The position numbers and the translations under genes were made by a program. From a virus, in IMG/VR virus record IMGVR_UViG_3300010158_000028, positions 97,183 through 161,182 of that record: a stretch of 64,000 nt of DNA; one strand, 5' to 3'. Each line of letters opens with the position of its first letter. The stretch's first letter is position 1. Positions 3,709-63,440 of the stretch are shown in pieces. Below the pieces are notes generated by a model, which was not told the origin of the DNA, made no database searches, and saw nothing but the letters and a program-made list of their open reading frames with translations.

Positions 3709-5401
3709 AAAATGTACCAACAATTTCATCAAATGCAACACCAGTGCCAACTGCAACAAAGTTAAGTTGAATGAAGTTGATTGAACGGGCGGGTTTGATG
3801 TAGATATCACCAACAAATTGATTTGAATCAATAACATTTGCGGTATTATTCGTTGTATCACAGATAACTCTGTAATCGTAAATACCACGGCGGCCTTTAA
3901 TTTCACGCAAGAATGGTTCTACAAGATTTACAAATGCTGCTCTTGTAAATTCATCATTGAATTCAAACAGTGTTGATCTTGCAGCTTTAGCAATTGATTT
4001 CTCAAGAACAATAAACAATCTACGAACATTGATCCGATCAAATGCAGATGATTTACCTGTTTGAAGAGTCTTATCACCGTAAAGAATTGTACCTTCACCA
4101 GCAAATGTTACTACTGGATTAATAGAATTCTTATACAAAGTATCTCTTTGTGCCGATGTAGGATTCCAAGCAAGTTTAACAACATTCTTGATAATACCAC
4201 GTGAAAGACCTGCAGGTGAAAACCATGCATCACGATCAGCATCAGTGCGAGCGCATAGACCAGCAATGTCACCATTTAATGGTACCCAACGATATACATT
4301 GTTATATTTGTCAAATTGATATTTCCAACCACTATCAACAAATGCATATGAAGATTTTGTAAATGTTGCAGCAGTAGCAGTAACACTTGTTAATTCACCA
4401 TTGTAATTATCAACACAGTCATCTAGTTGTGGTGAAATAAATGCGATACAATCTTTACGTGACTCTGCAAGTGAAATTATTTTATTAGGTATCGTTGTAC
4501 CCGTTGTTACACCTGCCATTAAGAATGATACATCTTCTGAATCGGCATTAGCATACAAATCTAATGTTGCACTAATGTTTGCAGCGGTTGGTGTATCATC
4601 AATACCACCAGCCAATGATGCAGTTAAATTGCCGGAAAGATTTTTAAATGTTACTGCGCCAGCAATTGAAGAACCCCAATTGTTATTAGCGCCATCAACC
4701 ATGTTAGAAGCTGGATGACCATTCCACCAAATGTATTTTGATTTAGAATTGATTACATCTTTATAATAGTTACTTGTTCCATCAGGATTTTTAATATCAG
4801 ATGCTTTTGATGCATAAGAAAATCTTTCAAGAACTGTATTTGCTGTTGATGAGAATTGACCATCTTCATCAATAACAACAATATGAATTTCATCATTTGC
4901 TGAATTTTTATTCGATGCTGCAGTAGATGTTCCTGGTGCAGAATCAAAATAAGAATTGTATGCCCATGTGCTAAAGTTATTTGAATCTACCATTGATACT
5001 TTTAGTGAATTACCTAAAGCACCCGGATACTTAGCTTGGAACAATGTTGTTGTGTTTGCACTGTAATTTGCTTCGTAATCGTCTTTGTTTAAAATCAAAC
5101 GAGCAGTACCTGCACCGCCACCTGCAGCATTTTTAGCTGCAGTACCAACTGACCGAGCAAATTTAAAATTACTACCATATGCTAAGAAATTGGCAGCAGT
5201 AAAAAATGACCCGTATGTATTTGCATCTGGTTTACCGAATGTATCTGCAAATTGTGATTCGCTGCTAATAAGAACTACGTTATTTGCAGGACCCCAAACA
5301 GACGCACCAGCTAAACCACCAATAGTAGTGGACACAGAAGGAACAACTGTAGTCGCATCTACTTCGGAGACCAGAACTCCTGGTGATAATTGAAAAGCCA
5401 T
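3707..5401 (-). CDS. 18: Contractile tail sheath protein gp18
   Basis: 564 residues (T4 gp18 is 659). It forms the contractile sheath around the tail tube. The N-terminus 'LSPGVLVSEVDATTVVPSVSTTIGG' is the classic sheath start, and the C-terminal ~120 residues ('INVRRLFIVLEKSI...FEFNDEFTRAAFVNLVEPFLREIKGRRGI') are the conserved sheath core with its 'GDIYIKPARSINFIQLNFVAV' end. The middle is variable and surface-exposed in the family. It follows gp17 with its own late promoter and a strong ribosome-binding site (AAGGAGAA). Confidence 0.97.
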   Translation of the reverse strand: MAFQLSPGVLVSEVDATTVVPSVSTTIGGLAGASVWGPANNVVLISSESQFADTFGKPDANTYGSFFTAANFLAYGSNFKFARSVGTAAKNAAGGGAGTARLILNKDDYEANYSANTTTLFQAKYPGALGNSLKVSMVDSNNFSTWAYNSYFDSAPGTSTAASNKNSANDEIHIVVIDEDGQFSSTANTVLERFSYASKASDIKNPDGTSNYYKDVINSKSKYIWWNGHPASNMVDGANNNWGSSIAGAVTFKNLSGNLTASLAGGIDDTPTAANISATLDLYANADSEDVSFLMAGVTTGTTIPNKIISLAESRKDCIAFISPQLDDCVDNYNGELTSVTATAATFTKSSYAFVDSGWKYQFDKYNNVYRWVPLNGDIAGLCARTDADRDAWFSPAGLSRGIIKNVVKLAWNPTSAQRDTLYKNSINPVVTFAGEGTILYGDKTLQTGKSSAFDRINVRRLFIVLEKSIAKAARSTLFEFNDEFTRAAFVNLVEPFLREIKGRRGIYDYRVICDTTNNTANVIDSNQFVGDIYIKPARSINFIQLNFVAVGTGVAFDEIVGTF

Positions 5402-5451
5402 GTTATTTTCTCCTTTTTATATTCATGGAATTTATAACTCAATTTATAGTA

Positions 5452-5459
5452 TATTTATA
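5452..5459 (-). promoter_or_regulatory. T4-type late promoter (TATAAATA) for the sheath gene
   Basis: Perfect TATAAATA on the minus strand, 51 bases before the sheath ATG and just after the terminase stop. Two further TATAAATT look-alikes follow within the leader. It fits high-level late expression of sheath and tube. Confidence 0.7.
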
Positions 5460-5462
5460 ATT

Positions 5463-7091
5463 TTAGAATGTTGACGGCATATAACCACGATTCTTCGCTA
5501 CGGTCCATATGTCCTCACCATCATACATCTTTTCTTCTTCTTTTCCATCATCAAAAATACCTATTGGCATATATTCATCTTCTAAATGCATCTTGCTTTC
5601 TTCCATTAATCTACGTCTGATATCAGAATTTGTAGTTTCTCTAAAGAAAGTTTGAGATGTTAACCAGGAAAATAGAACTAATGCCATCACCAAATCGTCA
5701 TGATTACCTTCTTCTGCCTCATATGAATCTCTTACCTTGACAAATGTGTTTAACTCAGATATAATATCAAAATCTTCAATGATTAGTTTCTTTGTTTCTA
5801 CCAAAGTCTTTAAGTTTGCACACCCAATCTTCTTAACGGGTGTTGTGGTCTTTATACCAAATGATACCGCTTTCTTATAACCAGCAGATAAATGCTGACC
5901 TTTTGTAACATGTTTTTGTATTTTGAATATATTCTCGTATTCTAATTCATAATGTAAAATGTCAACAACTTGTTGACCTACATTATTAGTCTCTGCCAAC
6001 AGAAATGCACCATTATATCTTTGTCCAATATTATATATGATAGTAGGAAAGAGTAAAGGTGCAATGTTATTATCTCTATATTTTGCCACTAGTTTATATG
6101 GTATATCTGTTACATCAACAACTGCAACTGTAGAATAGTCTTGACCTACACCTTCTGCACAGTCTACAGTCATTACATACGTTCTATCTGGTCTTGGCAT
6201 TTCATGTATATCTAATCCTTCAATAGAACTTAATGGATCTCTAAATGCTAATTGTCTTAATATAATACCAGGTATTAATGTTGCAGAAGAACCAATGAAT
6301 TCAGTTTCAAACTCTTGTTGAAATTGTTCTTCACTAGTATTTCTAATTGTTTCTTCTTTCCACTTTTGATCTCTACCTGGTACCATTGACCAGTGAACTT
6401 CAAGTGGTTTATATAATGACCGTTTCTCTGTTGCATCTACCCACATCTTATAGAAATGATTTAGGCCATAAGGTGTAGATACAATGATTACTTTTGTTGT
6501 TTTACCTGAAGAGATAACGGGATATGTAGATGTAAAGAAATCATTTGCCATATTCTGTGGAACGAAAGCAAACTCATCAAGAAAGATTAAGTTGTATGTT
6601 CCTCCACGAACACCAGAATTTGATGTTGCAAATGCGGCAATCTTAGAACCGTTCTCTAATTCTAAACTTCTTTTATTCCAAACTACAATACCTTGTTGTA
6701 ACCAAATTGGTAAATATTCATATGCATATTGTATTCTACTTAAAATATCTTGTGCGAGATTACCTTTGTTAGCAAGAATTGCAACTGAAAAGTTTTCTTT
6801 GAATAATACACACCATAACATGTAACCCGCAGATGTTGTTGTTTTACCAACTTGTCGAGGCATCTTACAAATACTAAAACGATTCTCATGGAAATTTCTG
6901 ACCATATCTTCTTGAAATGGCCACATCTCAAATGGAATAAGACCACGGTCCACGTTGACGATTTTTACATACGTCTTAATGAAGTAAACAGGATCATCTA
7001 TACACTTTGCAATTTCTATTGCTTGTTCTTCAGTGTATGATAATTCAATTCCTGTGGGTTTTAGTTTTGGATTACCTAAATAACCTTGCAT
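5463..7091 (-). CDS. 17: Terminase large subunit gp17
   Basis: 542 residues (T4 gp17 is 610). It is the DNA-packaging motor and headful nuclease. The ATPase has Walker A 'RQVGKTT' at residues 79-85 and Walker B 'LIFLDE' at 168-173, followed by the coupling motif region 'VSTPYGLNHF' near 205. The RNase H-like nuclease domain begins near 300 with Asp310 in 'TVDCAEG', Asp318, and the late acidic pair in 'EGNHDDLVMAL'. The start at 7091 shares bases with the stop of the Dps gene (TAATG), so the two are translationally coupled. The insertion of that gene between gp16 and gp17 is unusual. Confidence 0.98.
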   Translation of the reverse strand: MQGYLGNPKLKPTGIELSYTEEQAIEIAKCIDDPVYFIKTYVKIVNVDRGLIPFEMWPFQEDMVRNFHENRFSICKMPRQVGKTTTSAGYMLWCVLFKENFSVAILANKGNLAQDILSRIQYAYEYLPIWLQQGIVVWNKRSLELENGSKIAAFATSNSGVRGGTYNLIFLDEFAFVPQNMANDFFTSTYPVISSGKTTKVIIVSTPYGLNHFYKMWVDATEKRSLYKPLEVHWSMVPGRDQKWKEETIRNTSEEQFQQEFETEFIGSSATLIPGIILRQLAFRDPLSSIEGLDIHEMPRPDRTYVMTVDCAEGVGQDYSTVAVVDVTDIPYKLVAKYRDNNIAPLLFPTIIYNIGQRYNGAFLLAETNNVGQQVVDILHYELEYENIFKIQKHVTKGQHLSAGYKKAVSFGIKTTTPVKKIGCANLKTLVETKKLIIEDFDIISELNTFVKVRDSYEAEEGNHDDLVMALVLFSWLTSQTFFRETTNSDIRRRLMEESKMHLEDEYMPIGIFDDGKEEEKMYDGEDIWTVAKNRGYMPSTF

Positions 7092-56740: not shown

Positions 56741-56905
56741 GATGGGTTATTCTGTTACGAGGAAACCCATCGAAACCCTAAGTAGCCGTTAGGCTGCTAA
56801 TTGATAAACGCTTTCGTTTGCATTTAAAGATTTTACTTTTAACGACTATCTGTGTCGTGTTGTCTGTTTCGTTACTCATTGTCCTGTCGAAACTAAATCC
56901 GGCCC
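56741..56905 (-). ncRNA. ssrA: tmRNA, coding half of a permuted two-piece gene
   Basis: Read on the minus strand. The mature 5' end is at 56905. 56905-56899 (GGGCCGG) is the 5' acceptor strand; it pairs over 7 bp with CCGGUCC at 57447-57441, including G3-U70, the alanine identity pair. AUUUAGUUUCGA follows as the D-like region. P2 strand CAGGACA (56886-56880) pairs with UGUUCUG of the acceptor half. A hairpin ACGAC/GUCGU comes next. The tag frame starts at GCA 56821: ANESVYQLAA, stop TAA at 56791-56789. A P5-like helix surrounds the stop and an 8-bp hairpin (GAUGGGUU/AACCCAUC, 56771-56741) is near the 3' end. Exact 3' end is inferred. Confidence 0.93.
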
Positions 56906-56906
56906 A

Positions 56907-57365
56907 TCATAAAGACACATGAGGATTAACTTTATTCATAACTGAACGTAATCTACCTCTAGTCCAATTTTCAGGATGATTATCCAAAGAAAATTGTCCT
57001 TCTTTTTCACCATTGTTAAACCAAAATCTTTTTGCTCTAACTTTTCTACCATCAACATCAGGTGCATATAATGATTTTCTTTTCCAAAAAGGAATTCCAT
57101 CATCATAACTTCCAACACCCCATTGTTTCATGTTGGATTTTCTAGCACCTTTTCTTCCTGCGATACTCAATAGTTCTTTGACTAATTCTTCTTTGGACAT
57201 TAACCCTGCTAATCCTTGCCAAGCCAAATAATCTTCATGTAATCCATGTTTTTCCCACAATTCTTTATGTGCTAAAGCGTGTTCCTCAACAGTTAATTCC
57301 ACTAAATTGTCTTTACTATCAGTACCGCCCATATGTTTAGGTATTATATGGTGTTTGTGTTTCAT
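56907..57365 (-). CDS. HNH homing-type endonuclease in the tmRNA intervening segment
   Basis: 152 residues. 'HKHHIIPKHMGGTDSKDNLVELTVEEHALAHKE' (in part) has the HNH layout: His-His pair, Asn and the following His residues at 5-33. A middle 'AGRKGARKSNMKQWG' resembles a NUMOD3-type DNA-binding motif, and the end has 'WFNNGEKEGQF', common in phage HNH homing enzymes. Expected to cut double-stranded DNA. The stop TGA (56909-56907) is one base before the tmRNA coding half, so the gene fills the intervening segment of a permuted tmRNA. It is regulated by tandem late promoters inside an inverted repeat just upstream. Confidence 0.9.
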   Translation of the reverse strand: MKHKHHIIPKHMGGTDSKDNLVELTVEEHALAHKELWEKHGLHEDYLAWQGLAGLMSKEELVKELLSIAGRKGARKSNMKQWGVGSYDDGIPFWKRKSLYAPDVDGRKVRAKRFWFNNGEKEGQFSLDNHPENWTRGRLRSVMNKVNPHVSL

Positions 57366-57375
57366 TTGTTTTCTC

Positions 57376-57416
57376 CTGTCGATTGTTACTTATTTATAAT
57401 TATTTATAATCGACAG
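57376..57416 (-). promoter_or_regulatory. Inverted repeat masking the HNH ribosome-binding site
   Basis: CTGTCGATT and AATCGACAG (57416-57408 and 57384-57376, minus strand) are a perfect 9-bp inverted repeat with a 23-base loop. The right arm runs into the ribosome-binding site (AGGAG, then ATG 57365). Read-through RNA would fold and hide it. RNA started from the two late promoters inside the repeat would lack the left arm and stay open. Confidence 0.75.
57391..57408 (-). promoter_or_regulatory. Two tandem perfect late promoters (TATAAATA x2)
   Basis: TATAAATA occurs at 57408-57401 and again at 57398-57391 on the minus strand, 26 and more bases before the HNH start. They lie inside the inverted repeat described separately, and inside the intervening segment between the two tmRNA halves. 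Confidence 0.8.
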
Positions 57417-57436
57417 AGATTTAACATATGCCCTTA

Positions 57437-57510
57437 TGGTGGACCGGGGGGGATTCGCACCCCCGTCCAGAACACCTTTTACTTCACTTCATACAACAAT
57501 TCTATTAAAT
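57437..57510 (-). ncRNA. ssrA: tmRNA, acceptor half of a permuted two-piece gene
   Basis: Minus strand; the CCA end is encoded at 57439-57437, discriminator A at 57440, 3' acceptor strand CCGGUCC at 57447-57441. The T-arm is GGGGG-UGCGAAU-CCCCC (57464-57448). P2 strand UGUUCUG (57474-57468) pairs with the coding half. UGUUGU (57498-57493) can pair with ACAACA of the coding half (56863-56858) as P3. The 5' end is not defined by sequence; it must lie after the outer-membrane gene's stop at 57517. Lies before the coding half in transcription order, which is the signature of permuted tmRNA. Confidence 0.92.
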
Positions 57511-57516
57511 ATCCTA

Positions 57517-57966
57517 TTAGAAGGATACTTTAACACCTGCACCGATTGAATTACCATCAAATGACGATACACGACTTTGACCAATCTGATAACGATAATC
57601 AACTGTTGCGGCAACATTCTTAACAATAGGATAAGATAAACCAACACCACCTGTTACAGCATATCCATCTTTACCAGTTTGATTATCAAGCATTGCGGCA
57701 CCAGCTTTAACTGAAACTTGAACTGGACCAACTTTGGCAACATCATAAGCACTAACTAAACTATAACGATCCTGATTGTTTTTGCCTTTAGTAAACTGGT
57801 CATAACCTAAAGTAGCAGTAACACTACCAAATTTTTGACCAACGGTAATACCTTGACTATTACGATCTGTACCACTATAATCTTTAGTTACATTAACACC
57901 TACTTCTACGCTTTGTGCTGAACCAATAACTGCCATCAATGAAACTGCTAGAATAGACTTCTTCAT
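57517..57966 (-). CDS. Secreted outer-membrane beta-barrel protein
   Basis: 149 residues. Signal peptide 'MKKSILAVSLMAVIGSAQS' (19 residues), then alternating-polarity strands ('ATLGYDQFTKGKN', 'DRYSLVSAYDVAKVGP', 'YAVTGGVGLSYPIV', 'AATVDYRYQIGQS'). It ends in Phe ('GAGVKVSF'), the C-terminal signature read by the BAM machinery. An eight-stranded barrel is likely. Could change the host surface or block superinfection, like Lom-type proteins. It ends 7 bases before the tmRNA acceptor half region and has a strong ribosome-binding site (GAGGAG). Its direct role is not known. Confidence 0.85.
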   Translation of the reverse strand: MKKSILAVSLMAVIGSAQSVEVGVNVTKDYSGTDRNSQGITVGQKFGSVTATLGYDQFTKGKNNQDRYSLVSAYDVAKVGPVQVSVKAGAAMLDNQTGKDGYAVTGGVGLSYPIVKNVAATVDYRYQIGQSRVSSFDGNSIGAGVKVSF

Positions 57967-60883: not shown

Positions 60884-61025
60884 TATTCTTTTCCTGTTTT
60901 AATAACCGATATGCGGTTTTGTCTTTATGTTTTTTTCTGAACTGTTTGAAAGTATCTTTACCATCTTCATGTTTACGCATTTTAGATTTGTTCAACTTCT
61001 CAAACTTCTTACCACCTGCTATCAT
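60873..61025 (-). CDS. Small basic protein (50 aa)
   Basis: 50 residues, 'MIAGGKKFEKLNKSKMRKHE...', one third Lys/Arg. Starts in an ATGA overlap with the epimerase stop, which supports it as a real gene. Possible nucleic-acid binder; function unknown. Confidence 0.5.
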   Translation of the reverse strand: MIAGGKKFEKLNKSKMRKHEDGKDTFKQFRKKHKDKTAYRLLKQEKNNDY

Positions 61026-61990
61026 ATTACTTCCTCTTCCCTTTTACAAATATGCCAATAAAATGCCGTATTAATAATTGATTCAATATCGTGCTTAGGA
61101 TTAAAAATCTGTTTTTGTTTTGCTAATGAACTATCAGCAATAAGAATATCTGGATCACCAGAACGTCTTTTACCAAATGTATATTTAACATTAACTCCAC
61201 ATTTTTTAATATACTCAATGATTTCTAATACTGAATATCCTGTTCCATTACCTAAATTTAATATAAATGATTTATTGTCAATGTATGATGATGCAGTCAC
61301 ATGAGCATCTGCTACATCTGATACATGAACATAATCTCTAACACACGTTCCATCTTTTGTATTATAATCATCTCCATATACGATAACATTATTTAGATTT
61401 TCTAGAATGTTAGGTATCAAATGTGTTTCTGGTTTATGGTTTTCACCCATTTCACCATCAGGATCAGCACCCGCAAGATTAAAGTATCTGAATATACCAT
61501 ATTTCATTCCAGAATCTTTAATCATCTGTTCACATGCCAATTTAGTATTACCATAAACAGAATTATTATTAGTAAGTGGATGATGTTCATGTATCATATA
61601 TTTGTTCCACGAACCAAGAAGTTTTGGTTCATATACTGCAGCAGTAGAACTGAATATAATCTTATTGGTATTAGATGATTCCATACGTCTTAATAAGTTT
61701 GCAGTGCCAGCAACATTATTATACCAAAACTCAGTTGGATGTTTCATTGATTCACCAACTTCAATTCTACCCGCAAGATGAAATACAGTATCAAATTGAT
61801 ATGAATCAAATAATGTAAATAAATCATTGTTATCGCATATGTTACCATGACACCAATAATCGTAATACCTATGTGCTGGTGGCACTAAATCAAATATAAC
61901 AACATGCCATCCTGCTTTCTTAAGTGCTTTACTTAAATGACTACCCAAATACCCGGCGCCACCTGTAATAAGCGCTCTTTTACTTTCCAT
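61022..61990 (-). CDS. galE: UDP-glucose 4-epimerase-like enzyme (GalE family)
   Basis: 322 residues, a typical GalE length. Rossmann NAD-binding 'TGGAGYLGSH' (GxxGxxG at residues 10-16), catalytic Ser115/116 ('IIFSSTAAVY'), Tyr146 and Lys150 ('YGNTK'). The 'RYFNLAGADPDGEMGE' segment (about 168) is characteristic of GalE. It would interconvert UDP-hexoses such as UDP-glucose and UDP-galactose in the cytoplasm. The start overlaps the glycosyltransferase end by 58 bases. Substrate among UDP-sugars not fixed by sequence. Confidence 0.88.
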   Translation of the reverse strand: MESKRALITGGAGYLGSHLSKALKKAGWHVVIFDLVPPAHRYYDYWCHGNICDNNDLFTLFDSYQFDTVFHLAGRIEVGESMKHPTEFWYNNVAGTANLLRRMESSNTNKIIFSSTAAVYEPKLLGSWNKYMIHEHHPLTNNNSVYGNTKLACEQMIKDSGMKYGIFRYFNLAGADPDGEMGENHKPETHLIPNILENLNNVIVYGDDYNTKDGTCVRDYVHVSDVADAHVTASSYIDNKSFILNLGNGTGYSVLEIIEYIKKCGVNVKYTFGKRRSGDPDILIADSSLAKQKQIFNPKHDIESIINTAFYWHICKREEEVI

Positions 61991-62679
61991 GGAAACTCAC
62001 CTTTATACTTTTCATTTTGTATACTATTACCCTTATCAAAAAAATCTTGTGTTACTGAATTAGGATTACCATCTAATCTATAACTCATTGTATGTTCATT
62101 ATTACATTCATACTTTGGGAAGTGATGTTTCAATGCACTAAAAAACTTTCTATCTGCACCCCATTGACCATACCATGCATGTCCAACTTTAACAGCAACA
62201 TCTCTACGAATGGCAAAACTAGATGTATCAATATGATTTACATTATCATCAAAATACACTGGCCATTTACCTAATGATTCACAATTATCTTCACACAAAT
62301 AGTTGCCATCTTTATCATAGATTTTTCTTAGTGAATATGCCCAATCATTACCTTCATTCAAAACATCAACTAATGATTGAACATGATTAGGTTCAAACCA
62401 GTTATCTTCATCTAGATAACAGATAACATCTGCATTAACTAAAAATGAACATGCGGCATAGACACGGTGTCCATACCAACCTTGTCCTACGTTATCTTCT
62501 AATACAACAAACTTAGTGGTAGAACTCTCAATACACGTATCAAATACATTTTTTCTATGTGCATATCCATCTACAAAAATGTAATGGACAATATCTTTAT
62601 AAGATTGATTTTCTATAGATTCAACACATTGTTTAAGATGTGCGGAACCAATTGTTGGAGTAACTACTGCAACTTTCAT
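61933..62679 (-). CDS. Family 2-type glycosyltransferase
   Basis: 248 residues. GT-A fold: 'MKVAVVTPTIGSAHLKQCVESIENQSY' (in part) is the nucleotide-sugar binding strand. 'VICYLDEDNWFEPNHV' holds the metal-binding DxD-like motif (Asp90-Glu91-Asp92). 'WYGQWGADRKFFSALKHHFP' is a typical acceptor region. It would move a sugar from an NDP-sugar to DNA, lipopolysaccharide or a virion protein; the sequence does not decide which. Clustered with the epimerase and a cytidylyltransferase. Confidence 0.78.
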   Translation of the reverse strand: MKVAVVTPTIGSAHLKQCVESIENQSYKDIVHYIFVDGYAHRKNVFDTCIESSTTKFVVLEDNVGQGWYGHRVYAACSFLVNADVICYLDEDNWFEPNHVQSLVDVLNEGNDWAYSLRKIYDKDGNYLCEDNCESLGKWPVYFDDNVNHIDTSSFAIRRDVAVKVGHAWYGQWGADRKFFSALKHHFPKYECNNEHTMSYRLDGNPNSVTQDFFDKGNSIQNEKYKGEFPWKVKERLLQVAPGIWVVI

Positions 62680-63440
62680 TTTCTCTCAATGTCCTCTTCA
62701 ATACATTTGATACCATATTGTATTTCAATAATCTTACATGGTTCATCAAATGGGTTTGTTAATTGGTGCCATCCACCAACTGGTATCTTTATATTACTAT
62801 GTTTATATAAAGTTTGTGCTGGCATTTTATAATCAGAATCTAACATAGTATTGACTACTGCACAACCTTCTGCAATATGCCAATACTCGGCACGATGTTT
62901 ATGTCTCTGTATTGATAAACTAGATTTAGGATTAATAGTAAGTTCTTTTACTTTAGTTCCTTCAATATCATATAATACACGATAGTAACCCCATGGTCGT
63001 GTTGTCTTTGGTTGTTGCCAATCTTGTAATATAACACTTGATGAATTCTTTTTATAATTACCACCAATACCAAATTCAAAATTAATACCTTCAATATTCA
63101 TCTCTGGTATATTTTTTTCTGTTCTATCACCACCATTCGCAAAAATAATTACATCATCGGGATATTTAATCCTTGCTTTTCTTAATAGGTCACATGCAGT
63201 ATTATCATTATCATTAAATACAATTACTTCATCAACCATTTTCATATTACTTACAATTGCATGGCGTTCATCGAAAGGTAAAAATGATTTACCTTTCTTT
63301 CGTTCTAACCATGCATCAGAATTAATACCTACAATTAAATGATCACCTAACTCCTTCGCTTCACTAAACATAGAAATATGACCACTATGAATAGGATCAA
63401 ATCCACCGGAAACAATAACAATAACTTTCTGCATAATCAA
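62676..63440 (-). CDS. Cytidylyltransferase-cupin fusion protein
   Basis: 254 residues, two domains. Residues ~5-135 are a HxGH nucleotidyltransferase: 'SGGFDPIHSGHISMF' with His18 and His21, then 'GINSDAWLERKKGKSFLPF' and 'DERHAIV', as in RfaE/glycerol-3-phosphate cytidylyltransferase-like enzymes. Residues ~150-254 are a cupin of the mannose-6-phosphate isomerase type: 'RPWGYYRVL', 'SLSIQRHKHRAEYWHIAEG', 'PVGGWHQLTNP'. Fusion of these two is unusual; the natural pairing for this cupin is with a guanylyltransferase of another fold. Probably makes or isomerises a sugar nucleotide for the adjacent glycosyltransferase. ATGA junctions join it to both sides. Confidence 0.82.
   Translation of the reverse strand: MIMQKVIVIVSGGFDPIHSGHISMFSEAKELGDHLIVGINSDAWLERKKGKSFLPFDERHAIVSNMKMVDEVIVFNDNDNTACDLLRKARIKYPDDVIIFANGGDRTEKNIPEMNIEGINFEFGIGGNYKKNSSSVILQDWQQPKTTRPWGYYRVLYDIEGTKVKELTINPKSSLSIQRHKHRAEYWHIAEGCAVVNTMLDSDYKMPAQTLYKHSNIKIPVGGWHQLTNPFDEPCKIIEIQYGIKCIEEDIERK

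Follow-up and report, generated by a model that had tools for sequence, protein, structure and literature searches.

Organization of the permuted tmRNA locus

The stretch of DNA analyzed here, hereafter the window, comprises 64,000 nucleotides (positions 97,183 to 161,182) of the 161-kb virus record IMGVR_UViG_3300010158_000028 of IMG/VR, and harbors a circularly permuted, two-piece gene for transfer-messenger RNA (tmRNA) whose intervening sequence (IVS) carries an HNH homing endonuclease gene (HEG). All elements of this locus lie on the minus strand. The 3′ (acceptor) piece, at 57437-57510 (57510 being approximate), presents a T-arm (57464-57448) formed by the T-stem GGGGG/CCCCC (57464-57460/57452-57448) and the loop TGCGAAT, followed by the acceptor 3′ strand CCGGTCC (57447-57441), an A, and an encoded CCA (57439-57437). 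The 5′ (coding) piece, at 56741-56905 (its 3′ limit being approximate), begins with the acceptor 5′ strand GGGCCGG (56905-56899), which pairs 7/7 with CCGGTCC, and includes the D-region TTCGACAGG, the tag frame GCAAACGAAAGCGTTTATCAATTAGCAGCCTAA (56821-56789), which reads ANESVYQLAA plus a stop codon and so ends in AA, and the terminal hairpin GATGGGTT/AACCCATC (56771-56741). The two pieces are also joined by the 7-bp helix P2, in which CAGGACA (56886-56880) pairs with TGTTCTG (57474-57468). An initial annotation of this DNA had placed the T-arm with its CCA at 57464-57437 and a coding piece from 56905 onward on the minus strand, had paired the halves through a 7-bp acceptor stem and a 7-bp P2, and had recognized a tag frame; its coordinates proved exact and its tmRNA elements correct, but it left out the HEG, the ORF that occupies the spacer.

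The assignment as a circularly permuted phage tmRNA is backed by sequence, structure, an intact locus in a sister phage and database models. The initial annotation had proposed ARAGORN and the permuted Rfam models as a check. Neither ARAGORN nor Rfam at its gathering threshold returned a tmRNA match anywhere in the window, but at a relaxed threshold the two halves matched RF04321 (tmRNA_permuted) separately, with 42.7 bits (E 6.7e-7) and 26.1 bits, both below the gathering cut-off of 47 bits, and a beta_tmRNA match was obtained with E 4.3e-8. The misses result from the 531-nt length of the IVS, which explains the failure of standard tools on such tmRNAs; some HEG-bearing loci nevertheless pass the RF04321 cut-off across their cargo (L010, 62.5 bits; L013, 59.1 bits). 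A scan for the full feature set matched the window once and none of the 60 Markov-randomised windows. The unconstrained minimum free energy (MFE) fold of the 770-nt precursor contains 7/7 acceptor pairs; when the two pieces were cofolded, the acceptor stem, the T-stem and P2 formed. A chance match of short complementary segments was ruled out by the absence of matches in the 60 randomised windows and by the tmRNA of the sister phage L208, which RF04321 scores far above threshold (131.5 bits, E 1.9e-27).

Scans of viral contigs recovered well over 100 permuted tmRNAs. In many of those from phages, a non-canonical T-loop, GGCAGTA or GGCGGTA, replaces the usual TTCRANN. A plus-strand ORF (57333-57533) that runs over the tmRNA of the window reads GGPGGIRTPV, a typical spurious translation of a tRNA-like T-arm/CCA end.

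A homing endonuclease gene in the tmRNA spacer

The IVS extends over 56906-57436 (531 nt) and, by prediction, is not part of the mature tmRNA. Within it, the HEG (57365-56907) encodes 152 amino acids, and its stop codon finishes 1 nt ahead of the tmRNA 5′ piece. The protein matched the homing endonuclease family phrog_655 (E 2.6e-15), whereas its score against the Pfam HNH model PF01844 (20 bits, E 7.7e-4) was slightly below the cut-off of 21.4 bits, which one of its relatives passes with 25.1 bits. In the protein alignment A1, the HNH-domain residues H5, H6, N20, H29 and H33 are invariant. It is likely that the IVS of a permuted tmRNA was taken over by a mobile HNH homing endonuclease gene while the tmRNA kept a functional appearance.

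Since tmRNA T-loops are known to harbor group I introns that carry endonuclease genes (PMC11915505), the HEG could be imagined to reside in such an intron, as in bacterial tmRNA genes. In the window, however, the T-loop TGCGAAT is intact, no intron family, group I included, was found in Rfam at E<=10 over the region, and the insertion lies exactly between the CCA and the acceptor 5′ strand. The group I intron was rejected on these grounds and is hardly credible as an account of the locus.

Occupied and empty sites in closely related phages

In L208, a near-identical sister phage, the same tmRNA has an IVS of only 66 nt (L208:3596-3661) and no HEG. The spacers of the sister contigs L207-L211 measure 66-82 nt, all are empty of the HEG, and in all of them ARAGORN reports a tmRNA* with the tag ANESVYQLAA, identical to that of the window. 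The HEG is present in the window, L002 and L003, so that its presence is polymorphic at one site among close relatives; no second pair of empty and occupied sites as close as that of the window and L208 was found among the fetched loci. Contigs L002 and L003 come from two further metagenomes and share the arrangement of the window, and related arrangements occur in many others; an assembly chimera was ruled out on this basis.

When the window was aligned with L208, the two were identical up to the T-stem and again from TAGTTTCGACAGG onward, and between these limits the spacer and both acceptor strands differed. The acceptor strands are GGGGGTG/CACCTCC in L208 and GGGCCGG/CCGGTCC in the window, and in both cases they stay paired. 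As the HEG sits between the two acceptor strands, a single exchange replaces both and the stem remains paired. The alignment shows both strands to have been exchanged together with the HEG cassette, and points to a way in which a permuted tmRNA could change its acceptor stem and still keep the complementarity. Cutting by the endonuclease may have driven this exchange.

A covarying helix that closes the spacer and overlaps the HEG

In phage permuted tmRNAs, the spacer ends are complementary and form a closing helix that extends the acceptor stem beyond the CCA. In the window, its 5′ strand TAAGGGCATATG (57425-57436) follows the CCA directly, and its 3′ strand CATGTGTCTTTA (56910-56921) corresponds to the His-Val-Ser-Leu codons at the end of the HEG. 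The two strands pair at 12/12 positions, and 11 of these pairs are present in the MFE fold of the 770-nt precursor. Over 18 HEG-bearing loci, which were selected by acceptor pairing and not by the closing helix, 10.6 of 11 positions were paired, against a mean of 7.4 and a maximum of 9.1 when partners were swapped in 2000 trials, a test that ignores the relatedness of the loci. Several helix positions carry three to five pair types across these loci. Short spacers without cargo gave a similar picture, with 9.5 of 10 positions paired versus 6.9 on partner swap.

This comparison shows the last codons of the HEG to double as one strand of the predicted IVS-closing helix, a clear case in which the RNA-processing helix of one gene would constrain the protein-coding sequence of another. 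The covarying helix is the best evidence that the occupied tmRNA is still a working RNA gene. It could be argued instead that the HEG killed the tmRNA and that the pieces are remnants, unprocessed owing to an overlong spacer; ARAGORN and the Rfam gathering thresholds fail on the window, and the host tmRNA could suffice for the phage. Such decay is improbable when set against the integrity of the locus. No damage is seen in the acceptor stem (7/7), T-stem, P2, D-region, tag frame or terminal hairpin, the coding piece does not differ from that of L208, and the acceptor pairing has outlasted a change of both strands. Moreover, the closing helix covaries in HEG-bearing and empty loci alike, and the precursor fold keeps the acceptor stem and the closing helix despite the long loop.

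Cargo-free spacers often end in TTATGAT, TTTTGAT or TTCTGAT immediately before the 5′ piece, which may represent an unmodelled processing element.

Distribution of the HEG clade and other spacer cargo

Comparison of 99 distinct HEG relatives placed 23 proteins in one clade (support 98/97, the bootstrap being not fully settled) and left 76 others. Of the 23 genes in the clade, 21 lie within the IVS of a permuted tmRNA (18 located by script and L310, L409 and L404 by inspection), and the remaining two, in L396 and L041, immediately precede an intact permuted tmRNA gene of the same orientation. None of the 76 relatives outside the clade was found within an IVS in the same sense. The layout with the HEG in the spacer was recovered in many phages both by the protein search and by a DNA pattern scan blind to the HEG; a second, long-gap pattern scan, whose loci were not read individually, also enters the tally. 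Among 158 distinct phage permuted tmRNAs, a sample biased by the manner of fetching, the median spacer was 87 nt, and the spacers of the HEG-bearing ones measured 464-531 nt. The tmRNAs bearing clade HEGs have widely differing tags, which is consistent with spread of the HEG between phages. The search of bacterial genomes returned a single weak relative in a MAG, which the scan did not place at a tmRNA, and none of the relatives in isolate phages was located at a tmRNA.

In two loci, L016 (= L410; about 4860-5760) and L076 (4910-5650), a copy of the tmRNA 3′ piece stands on either side of the HEG. The outer copy in L076 breaks off within the T-loop, as if displaced by an insertion that brought a new 3′ piece, a pattern somewhat like that of integrative islands at tRNA genes.

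Genes or ORFs other than HEGs were also found in the spacers of other phages (L303, L314, L325, L160, L159, L104, L127 and L098). Those of L303 and L314 encode a MRINEIL...DNCGPAALHM protein, that of L325 an unassigned 112-aa protein, that of L160 a CxxCxxCC protein (PF03692), and that of L159 a PGDYG protein (PF14083). RF04321 spans the cargo of L314 above its cut-off.

Proposed expression control of the HEG

Ahead of the HEG, the hairpin CTGTCGATT...AATCGACAG (57373-57416, minus strand; fold of -14.7 kcal/mol) includes part of the HEG ribosome-binding site (RBS; AGGAG, 57377-57373), and its loop contains two T4-type late promoter boxes TATAAATA (57408-57401 and 57398-57391, minus strand). 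Six of the seven TATAAATA boxes in the window are located 8-90 nt upstream of an ORF start. The hairpin/promoter layout is common to most of the other tmRNA-linked HEGs, some of which carry CTAAATA. In phage T4, I-TevI and segB are silent on early read-through RNA and are expressed from a late promoter through a like arrangement (PMC2988022). By analogy, the HEG would be under a T4-like control, silent early and active late in infection, and the same control would keep ribosomes off the closing helix during tmRNA maturation.

The same elements could serve another end if the IVS gene were a domesticated regulator whose translation melts the closing helix and stops tmRNA maturation late in infection. 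The late promoter and the RBS hairpin would supply the timing, translating ribosomes would melt the helix because one of its strands lies in the last HEG codons, and non-HEG genes occupy the slot in other phages. We consider this role unlikely. The presence of the gene in the window phage and its absence from the near-identical L208, together with its spread over tmRNAs with many different tags, better fit a mobile element, and the protein retains the conserved HNH-domain residues.

A possible homing target in the tmRNA D-region

TCGAC or GTCGA, as found in the tmRNA D-region, occurs upstream of the gene in 6/23 clade members. A second HEG clade carries it upstream in 14/14 members, on hairpin arms, and the other HEG relatives in 0/62; about half of the second clade have a tmRNA 3′ piece directly upstream on the opposite strand. 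This second, distinct clade, placed head-to-head with the 3′ piece of a permuted tmRNA, is represented in L056, L410, L018, L037, L064, L416 and L058. For I-TevI, the operator is known to resemble the homing site (PMC2988022). The longest word common to the promoter hairpin and the D-region of the same locus was strong in some loci and weak overall, and 186/555 control windows reached the observed value. Mimicry of a homing site is only hinted at because of shared ancestry and of this weak overall word comparison, and the conserved D-region can be put forward, as a hint, as the predicted cutting target of the endonuclease.

A broader and more tentative proposal, to which we give somewhat less than even weight, unites these observations. 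The spacers of permuted tmRNAs would form a general cargo platform, used by a homing HEG clade with matched acceptor strands and by non-HEG genes; the end of the HEG would have co-evolved with the helix, making translation and maturation mutually exclusive; and the promoter hairpin would mimic the D-region target (GGATCGAC / TTTCGACAGG) as an autorepressor site.

Proposed mechanism

Homing endonucleases are known to avoid harming their hosts by residing in self-splicing introns, in inteins or in the gaps between genes, and tmRNA is a nearly universal, strongly conserved RNA gene. The locus described here points to another kind of shelter, in a spacer that would in any case be excised by tRNA-processing enzymes, and the permuted form of the gene is seen to offer a slot used by mobile genes. 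From the anatomy of the locus, its occupied and empty sites, the HEG clade and the covariation, a model can be drawn of a homing element that would be 'spliced' by tRNA-processing enzymes.

According to this model, the IVS would be a cargo slot needing no intron, which the tRNA-processing enzymes of the host would excise, leaving the tmRNA intact. RNase P would cut at 56906/56905, and 3′ maturation would take place after the CCA at 57437. If the precedents of T4 I-TevI, segB and Aeh1 mobE hold, the HEG would be silent on early read-through RNA, leaving the precursor free to mature, and late transcripts beginning inside the hairpin would express it. When phages with and without the HEG infect the same cell, a tmRNA gene that lacks it would be cut by the endonuclease, and the cassette would be copied in during repair along with the two acceptor strands. 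The two-piece tmRNA, with the SmpB of the host, would rescue stalled ribosomes during infection, a role that the initial annotation had also suggested, next to a possible redirection of host rescue.

Several observations weigh against a mobile HEG lodged in a working tmRNA gene under such control. The bare interaction energy of the cofolded pieces (-7.3 kcal/mol) was no better than that of shuffles (-7.0 kcal/mol) and is uninformative for the pairing; loci of the L005 type have a deviating D-region, with TCGAT instead of TCGAC; and the neglect of relatedness in the swap test bears on the covariation. The clade members L004 and L009 lack the hairpin and the promoter, so that such control is not universal in the clade. 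In addition, an SmpB gene was not found in the phage record, and host SmpB would therefore be required.

Phage and genomic setting

The virus record contains genes for a T4-type portal (601 bits), terminase, tail sheath, gp32 and gp59, a set that identifies the phage as a T4-like myophage. In its terminase, it comes closest among isolates to Pelagibacter phage Mosig and to cyanophages (53-56% identity). The permuted tmRNA gene is flanked upstream by a beta-barrel-like gene (57966-57517) and downstream by a cell wall hydrolase gene (56720-56163), both on the minus strand. Elsewhere in the window, the minus strand of 61022-63440 carries genes resembling a sugar-nucleotide epimerase, a glycosyltransferase and a nucleotidyltransferase fused to a cupin-like domain, a run that probably serves surface sugar synthesis.

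Comparison with known systems

The permuted tmRNA had initially been thought new for a T4-like phage, a claim that does not stand, since a two-piece tmRNA was described in the T4-like methylophage Melnitz, and a tmRNA in Pelagibacter phage Mosig, in a study that listed 133 distinct phage tmRNA structures, of which 53 were in two pieces (PMC9004378). The window resembles these phages in its permuted tmRNA with a short tag within a T4-like genome, with no SmpB gene found in its record. It differs from them in the protein gene of its spacer, as none is described there; in Melnitz, a glutamine riboswitch is instead predicted at the 3′ domain. The order of a 3′ piece with CCA, a spacer and a 5′ piece with acceptor strand, D-region and tag is that of RF04321, to be considered along with alpha_tmRNA (RF01849) and beta_tmRNA (RF01850); the window departs from this family in a 531-nt spacer with a gene and in a score below threshold, unlike its short-spacer sister phage.

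Among endonucleases, the HEG shares the HNH domain, and the RBS hairpin containing a late promoter, with T4 systems that comprise the mob HNH genes, segB and I-TevI, and segB is located in a tRNA gene cluster (PMC2988022). The HEG of the window differs from those of T4 in lying inside a permuted tmRNA spacer and in a coding end that forms part of the spacer-closing helix; the review of T4 endonucleases makes no mention of tmRNA (PMC2988022). In the open-access literature, no report was found of a permuted tmRNA whose spacer contains an HEG or any other protein gene; one permuted spacer that contains a repeat element and another that contains a tRNA-Ala have been mentioned (PMC11915505). The nearest parallel in tmRNA itself is given by published group I introns with LAGLIDADG endonuclease genes, in which an endonuclease gene also occupies a tmRNA segment missing from the mature RNA (PMC11915505). 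In those cases, a LAGLIDADG gene is carried by a self-splicing intron in the T-loop of a standard tmRNA, whereas the window presents an HNH enzyme, no intron, and a spacer that tRNA-processing enzymes are expected to remove.
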